A stretch of 53,470 bases of DNA. Source: an uncultured Saprospiraceae bacterium. Lineage in GTDB: Bacteria > Bacteroidota > Bacteroidia > Chitinophagales > Saprospiraceae. Shown one piece after another: positions 49,868-53,470 of this stretch; the first letter of the stretch is position 1; each line of letters begins with the position of its first letter. The stretch is taken from positions 1 through 53,470 of the forward strand of contig CALLXF010000005.1 of assembly GCA_938015805.1 (NCBI GenBank), in the 5' to 3' direction. A program made the position numbers and the translations under genes. The notes under the pieces are model-generated. The model was given only the letters and a program-made list of their open reading frames with translations. It searched no databases and had not been told where the DNA came from.

Positions 49868-50653
49868 ATGGACTATAAAAATATACTTATCGAAAATAAT
49901 GACGGTGTAGTAACCCTAATCGTAAATCGTCCGCACGCTTTAAATGCTTTAAACATGGAGACCATCTCTGAGATCGGTGTCTTCTTTACTGAAGATTATA
50001 AAACGATCCAAAATCTAAAGGGAGTGATCATCACCGGAGCAGGAGAGAAAGCTTTCGTGGCTGGTGCAGATATCAAAGAATTTTTAGGTATAGAAAGTCC
50101 TGAAGCAGGGTCTGCTTTAGCTCGTAATGGTCATGATGTTTTTAATATTATAGAAAAGTTTCATAAACCTACGATAGCGGCTGTACAAGGATTTTGTTTA
50201 GGAGGTGGATTCGAATTGGCTCTAGCCTGTCATATGCGTATCGCTGGAGAAAAAGCAAAGTTCTCATTTCCAGAGGTAAACCTAGGACTACTACCTGGCT
50301 TTAATGGTTCCCAACGGTTACCTATGCTAGTCGGTAAAGCCAAGGCTTTTGAGTTATTAATGACCACAGATATGATCAAAGCAGAAGAAGCCGTCAAGCT
50401 CGGATTAGCTAATCATGTTGTTCCTCAAGGAGAAGAAATTTCTAAAGCCACAGAGATCATAGAAAAAATCGCAACTAAGGCCCCATTGGCTATAGCCGAA
50501 ATTATCAAAACTGTAAATGCCTATCAAGATAAAAACAGTGATGGAACCGAACAAGAGATTGCCTCTTTTGGTCAACTAATGACTACCAAAGATTTTGAAG
50601 AAGGTACTTCGGCCTTTATCGAAAAACGTAAAGCGGAGTTTACTGGAGAGTAG
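49868..50653 (+). CDS. Enoyl-CoA hydratase/isomerase family protein
   Basis: 261 residues, crotonase fold. Both catalytic Glu are present: the one in CLGGGFELALACHMRIAGE, which also holds the oxyanion-hole Gly, and the one in FSFPEVNLGLLPG. So it can hydrate 2-enoyl-CoA. The usual GGTQRL is slightly altered to NGSQRL. Acts in beta-oxidation or in branched-chain amino acid degradation. Lies 62 bases after the carboxyltransferase and 15 bases before the ECF sigma gene. Confidence 0.9.
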   Translation: MDYKNILIENNDGVVTLIVNRPHALNALNMETISEIGVFFTEDYKTIQNLKGVIITGAGEKAFVAGADIKEFLGIESPEAGSALARNGHDVFNIIEKFHKPTIAAVQGFCLGGGFELALACHMRIAGEKAKFSFPEVNLGLLPGFNGSQRLPMLVGKAKAFELLMTTDMIKAEEAVKLGLANHVVPQGEEISKATEIIEKIATKAPLAIAEIIKTVNAYQDKNSDGTEQEIASFGQLMTTKDFEEGTSAFIEKRKAEFTGE

Positions 50654-50668
50654 AAAAATCCACCCTTA

Positions 50669-51202
50669 ATGGCAAATGAAAAAGATTTTGAAAAACTGTT
50701 CAAAGCAAACTATAGAAGGTTTGTATCTGCCGCATACGCCTACTCTAAACAAAAACACATTGCTGAAGAAATTGTACAAGATGTATTTGTAGATTTCTGG
50801 AAACGCCTTGAGCGAAAAGAAAATATTTCAAATCATGAAGCCTACCTCAGAAGAGCTATCATGTATCGAAGTTTTGATGTTATTAAAGCGGAGAAAAAGC
50901 ATGGACATAAAGTGGAAGTCGATCTAATCGATAATTTTAGCAGAGACGAACATCAGAATCCTGAAACAGAAATTATCTCTAAAGAAAATCTAGCCTTTCT
51001 TCAAAAAACAATCGATTCCCTTCCAGAAAGAACCAGGCAAATTTTTATGCTCAGCCGATTTGAAAAAATGAGTTATAAAGAAATTTCTCAAAAAACTGAG
51101 ATCAATCAAAAAACGGTAGAATACCATATAAGTAAGGCGTTACAACTCATCAGAAATGCCTTAATCAGCTTGATAATCCTCACAATGAATATTCTTTTTT
51201 AA
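50669..51202 (+). CDS. ECF subfamily RNA polymerase sigma factor
   Basis: 177 residues with regions 2 and 4 only. Region 2 (about 8-75): FEKLFKANYRRFVSAAYAYS, then AEEIVQDVFVDFWKRL. Region 4 (about 110-165): LPERTRQIFMLSRFEKMSYK, then EISQKTEINQKTVEYHISKA, a helix-turn-helix for -35 recognition. Typical of Bacteroidota FecI-like sigma factors that are held by FecR anti-sigma proteins; FecR is two genes downstream. Being 15 bases after the hydratase, it may be read through from the carboxylase operon. Predicted to switch on the downstream receptor genes when a TonB receptor binds its substrate. Confidence 0.92.
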   Translation: MANEKDFEKLFKANYRRFVSAAYAYSKQKHIAEEIVQDVFVDFWKRLERKENISNHEAYLRRAIMYRSFDVIKAEKKHGHKVEVDLIDNFSRDEHQNPETEIISKENLAFLQKTIDSLPERTRQIFMLSRFEKMSYKEISQKTEINQKTVEYHISKALQLIRNALISLIILTMNILF

Positions 51203-51320
51203 AAAACTTTCAATTTCCACTAGGGTTTTTCTTTGTTTAATCTACTTCATAGTGTACGCAGTTTACAAAGCAGCTTTTTAAACACTAAAAACAATTTATT
51301 AAACTCTAAAAATTAGACAA

Positions 51321-51695
51321 ATGAATACGTTAAAAATATTGATAATGAGCCTTGGATTAATGATTGCTGCAACTTCTTGTGGCGACGATGATAGAGCAGC
51401 GGAATATAATTTAGTAAGCGCAAACCAAATCAAGAGTGACGATGAGGTAGCTTTAGAAATTAATATCAGCATTTCAGACCTAGATGGCCTTCAGCAAATC
51501 ATCGTAGAGAATGAGGAATTAGGCATTGATTTCTTAGAAAATATCACCACCAGATCCTCCATCGTAAATAAGAATTTTTTAATAGCACTTGATCCTGAAG
51601 AATTGGAAGAAGATACCATTTTCCTCTTAAATATTACCACCACAGACATAAACGGTAATACTTCAAAAGGAACAATAAATGTTGATATTTTATAA
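51321..51695 (+). CDS. Small lipoprotein of unknown function
   Basis: 124 residues. Signal peptide with lipobox: IMSLGLMIAATSCGDDD, with lipid-modified Cys20 followed by Asp-rich residues, which in Bacteroidota favours export to the outer-membrane surface. The mature part is a single beta-rich domain (VALEINISISDLDGLQQIIV, TIFLLNITTTDINGNTSKGT) reminiscent of an Ig-like beta sandwich. I do not recognise the family. It sits between the ECF sigma gene (118 bases) and the FecR gene (77 bases), where the usual order has FecR directly after sigma. The position suggests a role in the same uptake system. Confidence 0.75.
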   Translation: MNTLKILIMSLGLMIAATSCGDDDRAAEYNLVSANQIKSDDEVALEINISISDLDGLQQIIVENEELGIDFLENITTRSSIVNKNFLIALDPEELEEDTIFLLNITTTDINGNTSKGTINVDIL

Positions 51696-51703
51696 ATTTT
51701 ATT

Positions 51704-51740
51704 TCGAATCCCTTTACTTTATTTACGTAAAGGGATTCGA
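51704..51740 (+). other. 14-base-pair hairpin between lipoprotein and FecR genes
   Basis: TCGAATCCCTTTAC pairs perfectly with GTAAAGGGATTCGA around a nine-base loop, eight bases past the lipoprotein stop. The stem is followed by TACTTTG and then a T5 stretch, so it is not a classical terminator with adjacent T run, but may be a weak one or an mRNA-stability element. The FecR ATG is 32 bases downstream. Confidence 0.6.
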
Positions 51741-51772
51741 TACTTTGTTTTTAAATCATAACAAATAAATAT

Positions 51773-52756
51773 ATGAAAGCTAATTACACCTCACTAGTTC
51801 TCAAATCATTAGAAAACAATTTAAGTGAAAGCGAAAAAATTACTTTCGCAAATTGGCTACATGTAGAAGATAATTTCAAGAAATATCAGAAGATTAAACA
51901 AATCTGGAATGAATCAGGAAAACTTACTTATCCTGAATTAGAAGCATCTCTAAACGTAGAAGAGGCTTACCAAAAAGTAAAACGTAAAGCCGGATTATCG
52001 GATGCGACCACGAGATACATTACTCCAAAAAAACGGCGTACCCCATATTTAGTAGCCGCAAGCTTTATTCTTCTTGCGATGACATGCAGTTATTTTTTAC
52101 TTCAGTTTATTACTTCTAATGATTTTAAAACTTTAACTGCAGTTCAGAATATGGAATACACCCTTCCTGACTTGTCTACAGTCTGGCTTTCTGAGGGAAC
52201 TGAGTTATCATACCATCCTGATTTTAAAAATCATAGGAATATAAAGCTTGATGGCAAAGCCTTATTTGAGGTAATTCATGATACAGAAAAACCATTTACT
52301 GTGGATGCCGATGGAATGGATGTAACCGTACTAGGAACTAAGTTTATAGTATCTAATGAAGAAACAAGTACAGCATATATTCATGTCATAAATGGTAAGG
52401 TAAAAGTCGAGGACCCTAATAATAATGTGCAACCTCACATCCTAACTCAAGATATGACTGTAGAGAAAATCGAATCAAAATTAAAAATAACGGATAAAAT
52501 ATACGCTAACCAAATGTTCTGGGCTACGAATAAATTATACTATAAAGACGCCTCCCTAGAAAGAATTTTTGACGACCTAGAAAATTATTTTCATACAACT
52601 ATCACTTACAGCGATACTTTTAAAGATTGCAATTTTAGTGGGTCATTTAGTGAGCAGAATATCCAAGAAATCCTAAGCACTCTAGAGATTATTTATAACC
52701 TAGAAATAGAAAAGAAGCCTGGGAACATATCCATAACAGGACCATCATGCGATTAA
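51773..52756 (+). CDS. FecR family anti-sigma regulator
   Basis: 327 residues. N-terminal cytoplasmic part (about 1-88) with a helical anti-sigma segment (ENNLSESEKITFANWLHVED); one transmembrane helix (PYLVAASFILLAMTCSYFLL, about 91-113); then the periplasmic FecR domain (MEYTLPDLSTVWLSEGTELS, GKALFEVIHDTEKPFTVDAD, VLGTKFIVSNEETSTAYIHV) and a C-terminal STN-like region (FDDLENYFHTTITYSDTFKD). It inhibits the ECF sigma at 50669 until a TonB receptor signals. Its stop overlaps the receptor start by ten bases. Confidence 0.93.
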   Translation: MKANYTSLVLKSLENNLSESEKITFANWLHVEDNFKKYQKIKQIWNESGKLTYPELEASLNVEEAYQKVKRKAGLSDATTRYITPKKRRTPYLVAASFILLAMTCSYFLLQFITSNDFKTLTAVQNMEYTLPDLSTVWLSEGTELSYHPDFKNHRNIKLDGKALFEVIHDTEKPFTVDADGMDVTVLGTKFIVSNEETSTAYIHVINGKVKVEDPNNNVQPHILTQDMTVEKIESKLKITDKIYANQMFWATNKLYYKDASLERIFDDLENYFHTTITYSDTFKDCNFSGSFSEQNIQEILSTLEIIYNLEIEKKPGNISITGPSCD

Positions 52757-53470
52757 AGAAATTAACTATAACATTAATACTAATTACATTTTTAGGCTTA
52801 TCAAGTATAGCACAAAAAACAGAAAAAGATAATTCGGTAAGTATTAAAATATCCTATTCTTGTATCGATAAAGTACTAGAAAAAGTCATCGGAGATTTAG
52901 AAAAGGACTACCCTCTCCAATTCCAATACAACCCTATCGACGTTGAGAAGCAGCGTATAACAATCAATGCAGAGAACCTATCGAGCGAGACATTCTTAAA
53001 ACAAGCACTTAAAAACACTGGGCTTAAATTTAAAATAAACGAAAGCAACGTTATTCTATATACGTCTAAAAAAGACGATAGCCTGGGAAGTATAGAATCT
53101 ACATCAAAAAAAACAGTAAGTGGATATATTTTAGATGCAGAAACTACAGAATCACTAATCGGAGCTACCGTTTATGATTTAGCTTCAGGAAAAGGAACGG
53201 TAACTAATGAGTACGGTTTTTTTAGTATGACCCTCCCATCAGGACCGATTACCCTGCAAGCGTCCTACATTGGATATCAATCCGATGAAAACAAAATAAT
53301 GCTTCAGCAAGATGAAGAAATAAGTTTTGAATTATCATCAGGAGCATTAATAGAAGAAGTGGTCATCACCTCAGAGGCAGCATCAGAACCAATATACCAA
53401 CGGTCACAAATGAGTCAGTTAACGATTCCGGTAGGGCAACTAAAAGCCATACCTGTCATTCTCGGCGAAG
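52747..53470 (+). CDS. TonB-dependent receptor with STN and carboxypeptidase-regulatory-like domains, 5' part
   Basis: 241 residues visible, running off the window. The ATG at 52747 overlaps the FecR stop (52754-52756) in another frame, so translation is coupled. Signal peptide MRLKKLTITLILITFLGLSS. Residues about 30-105 are an STN (secretin/TonB short N-terminal) domain (SYSCIDKVLEKVIGDLEKDY, then LSSETFLKQALKNTGLKFKI). Residues about 122-205 are a carboxypeptidase-D-regulatory-like beta sandwich (VSGYILDAETTESLIGATVY, GYFFSM-like turn, ITLQASYIGYQS). The plug and barrel would follow. This is the SusC/RagA or FecA-like arrangement, in which STN touches FecR. The transported substrate is unknown. 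Confidence 0.92.
   Translation, partial: MRLKKLTITLILITFLGLSSIAQKTEKDNSVSIKISYSCIDKVLEKVIGDLEKDYPLQFQYNPIDVEKQRITINAENLSSETFLKQALKNTGLKFKINESNVILYTSKKDDSLGSIESTSKKTVSGYILDAETTESLIGATVYDLASGKGTVTNEYGFFSMTLPSGPITLQASYIGYQSDENKIMLQQDEEISFELSSGALIEEVVITSEAASEPIYQRSQMSQLTIPVGQLKAIPVILGE

Follow-up and report, generated by a model that had tools for sequence, protein, structure and literature searches.

The window analysed here, a stretch of 53,470 bp from the genome of an uncultured Saprospiraceae bacterium (assembly GCA_938015805.1, contig CALLXF010000005.1), is one entire contig (C5 of genome G000), and its 3' edge falls inside a receptor gene. The system in question is the cassette at this edge, in which an extracytoplasmic function (ECF) sigma factor is followed by a small lipoprotein, here called LPA, a FecR-like anti-sigma factor and an STN-TonB-dependent receptor (Table 1). 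This order had been proposed from the letters of the sequence (the original prediction), and all four genes are in place; searches with TIGR02985 and Pfam profiles confirmed sigma, FecR and the receptor. The sigma factor scores 136 bits against TIGR02985 (cut-off 126.4), which confirms that it is of the FecI-like Bacteroidota kind, and the STN region of the receptor, with a borderline score of 28.3 bits just below the Pfam cut-off of 28.4, aligns with the N-terminal extension of other FecR-adjacent receptors. The finer architecture had also been described correctly: the FecR and receptor genes share ten bases (52747-52756), and LPA is set off by spacers of 118 bp towards sigma and 77 bp towards FecR, the latter containing a hairpin.

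The remainder of the receptor can be placed on a second contig of the same genome, C21, the end of which repeats the last ten bases of the window in the right orientation. The receptor frame runs in phase from C5 into C21 through the plug, for which a Plug domain match was obtained on the C21 part, and reaches a total of 878 aa. Among the 15 receptor matches in this genome, that on C21 is the one left open for 640 aa up to a contig end; the frames around the remaining 14 measure 772-900 aa. From the short overlap, the reading frame and the finding that each half is most like STN-less receptors, we infer that C5 and C21 are joined. Directly behind the receptor on C21 lies a DUF4249 lipoprotein (303 aa, E 6.1e-28) and after it LPB, a second lipoprotein of 124 aa.

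Table 1. Features of the cassette and of the loci compared with it (window coordinates unless a locus is named)
Feature	Position	Strand	Details
Enoyl-CoA hydratase	49868..50653	+	Pfam ECH_1, E 5.6e-59; last gene of the upstream row; neighbour, outside the cassette
FecI-like ECF sigma factor, 177 aa	50669..51202	+	TIGR02985, E 1.3e-39; Pfam Sigma70_r2 and r4_2
Candidate ECF promoter, ACTAGGGT-N15-CTAC	51219..51245	+	Between sigma and LPA
LPA, 124-aa lipoprotein with a predicted single immunoglobulin-like (Ig) domain	51321..51695	+	Cys20, then GDDDR
Terminator-like hairpin, then TACTTTGTTTTT	51704..51740	+	14 pairs, 9-nt loop, -22.6 kcal/mol, z -7.1
FecR-like anti-sigma factor, 327 aa	51773..52756	+	Pfam FecR, E 1.2e-13 (51.7 bits); FecR_C, E 1.5e-13 (51.0 bits)
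STN-TonB-dependent receptor, N-terminal 241 residues	52747..53470	+	CarbopepD_reg_2, E 3.4e-20; STN, E 1.6e-06
MORN-repeat protein of G060, 234 aa; gene in the sigma-FecR gap	L077:5190-5894		
HELGH lipoprotein	L096:4093-4554	-	
HELGH lipoprotein	L302:7470-7967	+	

By its sequence, with a cysteine preceded by a hydrophobic stretch, LPA is a lipoprotein. In a by-eye comparison, the residues that follow the lipobox cysteine in LPA and in LPB (TDDFY) resemble the surface-export consensus sequences SDDDD and SDDFE, as given in the available text of PMC5080379. LPA and LPB thus appear to combine the lipobox cysteine with the polar/acidic export signal of surface-exposed Bacteroidota lipoproteins. 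The lipoprotein had been taken to be of unknown family; its length was correct, and nothing above cut-off was found for LPA in Pfam or NCBIfam or for LPB in Pfam, but the family can be recognised with a profile built from small lipoproteins of the Ig type, five in number (L189, cut for this purpose at a cysteine ahead of its lipobox one, L190, L010, L011 and L012), four of which have a Big_7 or DUF4625 match above cut-off. Against this profile LPA and LPB each reach a score that none of 5000 shuffles of their mature parts attains. Their matches in searches with one another are weak (E 0.004 and 0.002); none of 2000 shuffles aligns as well as the two mature parts do. Judged by these comparisons of sequence, LPA and LPB are homologous to each other and probably diverged members of this group of lipoproteins with a single Ig domain. 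The AlphaFold model of LPA, built from the single sequence, is all beta with a predicted local distance difference test score (pLDDT) of 74, and its Foldseek matches to beta-sandwich proteins are weak, the best having E 1.5e-4 at a template modelling (TM) score of 0.46.

LPA has matches at E <= 0.01 in 10 of 398 genomes taken from the bacterial family, its own included (9/397 others). A seven-member profile of the protein family, built with LPA and LPB among its members and with at most 29 candidates scored per genome, matches 52/148 genomes at E <= 1e-4, again including the genome of the window. In that genome, where scoring covered 29 of the 99 first-look candidates, LPA and LPB are the only matches among those scored. 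None of the 211 matches of an LPA pattern scan of genome contigs was a relative.

The position between sigma and FecR was compared across sets of loci that are best matches to FecR or the receptor and not random samples. The first set comprises the window and L073-L112 (41 loci); L083 was dropped because it has no FecR in the set of open reading frames (ORFs), L104 and L109 because they have no sigma beside FecR, and, with two gaps from L108 and one from L116, 40 gaps were obtained. L229-L268 (40 loci), minus five without a sigma in reach, form the held-out set of 35, and a third set of 11 loci was found via the receptor. A gene occupies the slot in 5/40 gaps of the first set: LPA in the window, a receptor and a DUF4249 gene in G053 and G084, a MORN-repeat protein in G060 and a metallopeptidase-like lipoprotein, named HELGH lipoprotein here, in G003. 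One doubtful 78-aa ORF lies in the slot among the 35 gaps of the held-out set, and inserts are present in 5/11 loci of the third set, G084 being again one of these. Two ORFs in this position, an antisense one of 76 aa in L103 and one of 78 aa in L229, were not taken to be genuine inserts.

In a FastTree phylogeny of 79 concatenated sigma and FecR pairs, the window forms a small clade with G053 and G084 (support 0.99) and, given this grouping, all three members of the clade have an insert in the slot. The cassettes of G053 and G084 are ordered sigma, receptor, DUF4249, FecR and second receptor, so that a whole receptor and its DUF4249 partner stand where the window has LPA, and all three cassettes carry ACTAGGGT in the gap behind sigma. 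The position between sigma and FecR thus behaves as a cargo slot. The order sigma, receptor, DUF4249, FecR and second receptor, with FecR as the fourth gene, was seen in L287, L289 and L292 (Aquimarina) and in L073 and L074; the three Aquimarina loci are outside the window group in the tree, and no box was found within the first 250 bp of their gaps of 342-398 bp.

The box in the gap behind sigma is enriched in related loci. The pattern TAGGG-N15-18-[TC]G[TA]C was written after inspection of the first set, the second being held out. In the first set the full pattern is present in 14/40 gaps and TAGGG alone in 18/40; 500 dinucleotide shuffles of this set gave means of 0.06 (at most 2) and 3.1, respectively, and 180 other same-strand gaps in the same loci contain the pattern 2 times and TAGGG alone 16 times. 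The held-out set has the pattern in 12/35 gaps vs 0/50 control gaps (TAGGG alone, 22/35 vs 2/50), and the third set has it in 3/11 loci, with G084 again among the three. From its position and form, we suggest that the box in the window is a sigma-dependent promoter; LPA would then be the first gene of the driven unit, and FecR, lying within this unit, would provide negative feedback. Literature searches of partial coverage returned no ECF promoter of this type on point; other papers, for instance the flavobacterial transcript map PMC9723704, may have a bearing on it, and we do not claim that the box is unpublished. Scans for sigma-70 promoters and consensus terminators gave counts no higher than in shuffles.

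Combining gene order, the homology of LPA and LPB and the box, we consider it on balance probable that LPA is the first sigma-driven gene and serves the receptor as an accessory at the surface, not as a part of the signalling pathway. The cassette would be a surface signalling system of the FecI/FecR type around one TonB receptor acting both as sensor, through STN, and as transporter, with the DUF4249 lipoprotein as its probable lid. In this scheme, (i) binding of a substrate to the receptor would free sigma through FecR, (ii) freed sigma would fire the promoter at ~51219, (iii) LPA would be made and, past a leaky hairpin, also FecR, the receptor, the DUF4249 lipoprotein and LPB, and (iv) LPA and LPB would be flipped to the cell surface, where they could help the receptor to bind its substrate. 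As the first gene behind a sigma-dependent promoter, LPA would be cargo of the signal. Of the two roles offered in the original prediction, surface accessory or third signalling component, the former fits better, given the acidic export-like residues, the all-beta model, the paralogue after DUF4249 in the same gene row and the position behind a promoter-like box.

Several observations weigh against this proposal. The box is absent from 26/40, 23/35 and 8/11 loci in the three sets. The window is itself outside the 14 gaps that show the pattern in full; its own version reads TAGGG-N16-CTAC, in which the exact second box is unmatched and CTAC fits three of the four letters of the CGAC found in the sister loci. 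ACTAGGGT alone is expected about once per window-sized stretch, and the strict motif has two matches in the genome of the window vs five for a reversed control, the second of the two lying inside a gene read as guanylate kinase; a sigma regulon based on this motif is not claimed. Fold searches with LPA gave weak matches, the highest TM by query being 0.57 among the 50 matches listed. Of its matches in nine other genomes, five are small lipoproteins with unrelated neighbours, and four belong to longer proteins. The original prediction proposed to look for LPA in the same position in relatives and named its absence there, together with an unrelated expression pattern, as what would speak against it; LPA is between sigma and FecR in 0/9 other genomes with a match, with several contigs ending close by, so that, as far as searched, this absence was what we found. 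Finally, the strong hairpin could halt transcription ahead of FecR and in that way uncouple LPA from the receptor.

The receptor itself may point to a past in which LPA was not the original occupant of the slot. The C21 part is 55% and 54% identical to the receptors without STN that fill the slot in G053 and G084 vs 43% and 42% to their adjacent STN receptors, i.e. the barrel is closer to STN-less, DUF4249-followed receptors than to the FecR-adjacent STN receptors of the sister loci. A tree was made of 85 receptors, of which 42 have an N-terminal extension as long as an STN domain and 43 lack one. Here the window receptor belongs to a clade (support 0.995) with 22 STN-less members and three that have STN (window, G053 and G084). 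It is therefore possible, though we hold it only tentatively, that the slot once contained a receptor and DUF4249 as in G053 and G084, and that a rearrangement moved a barrel of this type behind an STN part, with LPA as a replacement or a left-over in the gap. The tree gives no direction of change, the parent node of the window receptor covering all seven members of its subclade, and the LPA frame is intact. Moreover, this history concerns past events and is compatible with LPA being a sigma-driven surface accessory today. In G053 and G084 sensing and transport seem to be divided between two receptors, and the single receptor of the window would do both. A sensor receptor with a barrel of the STN-less, DUF4249-partnered kind gives a hint as to how sensing receptors arise.

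Alternatively, LPA could be a bystander, i.e. an independent gene for an Ig lipoprotein that came to lie between sigma and FecR and has its own transcription and termination. The strong hairpin behind LPA, with its T-rich tail TACTTTGTTTTT, fits this scenario. None of 200 shuffles is as stable as the hairpin, its core occurs at a single place in the genome, for which reason a repeated element was rejected, and the consensus terminator scan, with a loop limit of 8, omits it. The long gaps on either side of LPA, the five small LPA-related lipoproteins that are lone genes among unrelated neighbours and the absence of LPA from this slot in any relative found also speak for a bystander. However, LPB, the other member of the protein family found in the genome, closes the same gene row, and two copies within ~5.4 kb of a 3.59-Mb genome are unlikely by chance (~0.3% by a rough estimate that needs the C5-C21 join). 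In addition, the box ahead of LPA begins like the box behind sigma in the sister loci. We therefore regard a bystander as unlikely.

Layouts with a lipoprotein between sigma and FecR do recur, with other genes filling the slot and above all the HELGH lipoprotein, which has this position in G003 and L302. It has matches in 184/398 genomes from the bacterial family at E <= 1e-4, and among its 30 best-matching loci (L349-L378, that of the query included) 18 have the order sigma, HELGH lipoprotein, FecR and then a TonB receptor; these 18 include G001, G002 and G003, which belong to the genus of the window and in which the gene starts 7, 9 and 42 bp behind sigma, respectively. Ten of the 30 loci are without an adjoining sigma or FecR, and two are cut or unclear. 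HExxH is found in all 30 aligned sequences, further H, C and M positions are invariant, 17/30 sequences agree with a loose lipobox pattern, and Pfam PhageMetallopep is above cut-off for one of two proteins tested; the predicted structure of the L302 protein (pLDDT 34) was not used. The genome of the window has two homologues, of which the one viewed stands alone. Two lipoprotein-like genes (~228 and ~476 aa) lie beside the HELGH gene in the opposite orientation in G001, G002, G216 and G278. These loci resemble the window in that a small lipoprotein separates sigma from FecR and a TonB receptor, the STN of which was read from the sequence, comes after FecR; they differ in that their slot protein is metallopeptidase-like. 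The wider idea of a slot lipoprotein is better exemplified by this protein than by LPA. Because Prc and RseP are known to process FecR in proteobacteria (available text of PMC9249621), a dedicated FecR protease is a reasonable guess for the HELGH lipoprotein, and the protein is a candidate for an additional protease of this pathway; in literature searches of partial coverage, no metallopeptidase lipoprotein with FecR was found on point.

Since the HELGH lipoprotein holds the slot in many related loci, the slot can hold signalling-linked genes, and this, together with the position of LPA between sigma and FecR, is what would recommend LPA as a third component of the signalling, one that contacts FecR or the STN domain within the periplasm and adjusts the release of sigma. 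This second role from the original prediction gained no positive support: no LPA relative was found with FecR, no likeness of LPA to the metallopeptidase-like protein was noticed (no direct comparison was made), and the export-like residues predict a location at the cell surface, away from FecR. We consider it improbable, and equally so a four-part signalling system in which the position is, throughout this bacterial family, a dedicated slot for small signalling lipoproteins, with the HELGH lipoprotein processing FecR in many loci and LPA binding the receptor or FecR in the window.

The hydratase ends 15 bp ahead of sigma and closes a row of genes that we take, from reading their sequences, to encode a biotin carrier, a biotin carboxylase, an electron transfer flavoprotein and a carboxyltransferase. 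Given that G002 (G002:C73) preserves this row without a sigma cassette after the hydratase, the row is probably outside the cassette system; G001 was left out of this empty-site comparison, as its contig stops behind the carboxyltransferase. The genome of the window has another cassette of sigma, FecR and an 879-aa receptor (G000:C106, L093), and a related 788-aa receptor is further along the same contig.

The proposal that LPA is sigma-driven cargo provides a testable rule for such loci in this part of the Bacteroidota: to seek TAGGG-N15-18-[TC]G[TA]C behind sigma and to assign to the driven unit what lies downstream of it, as far as FecR and the receptor. Compared with known systems, the small Big_7/DUF4625 Ig lipoproteins of the five-member profile are like LPA in having ~120 aa, a lipobox and, as predicted for LPA, one Ig-like domain; they stand alone, whereas LPA lies in a cassette and is without a Pfam match above cut-off. 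The pairing of the receptor with DUF4249 is paralleled by BT2172/BT2173, in which a DUF4249 lipoprotein also follows directly after a TonB receptor and, according to the available text of PMC11003636, DUF4249 proteins are proposed to work with such transporters; in contrast, the receptor of the window has STN and is tied to sigma and FecR, and Ig lipoproteins are added. With FecI-FecR-FecA signalling, as far as it is covered by the available text of a review (PMC9249621), the window shares the order of ECF sigma, FecR with FecR and FecR_C domains, and STN-TonB receptor. It differs in the lipoprotein between sigma and FecR, in the two further lipoproteins after the receptor and in the candidate promoter ahead of LPA, which would put FecR in the driven unit. 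The arrangement of the cassette is, in total, a variant of known surface signalling.

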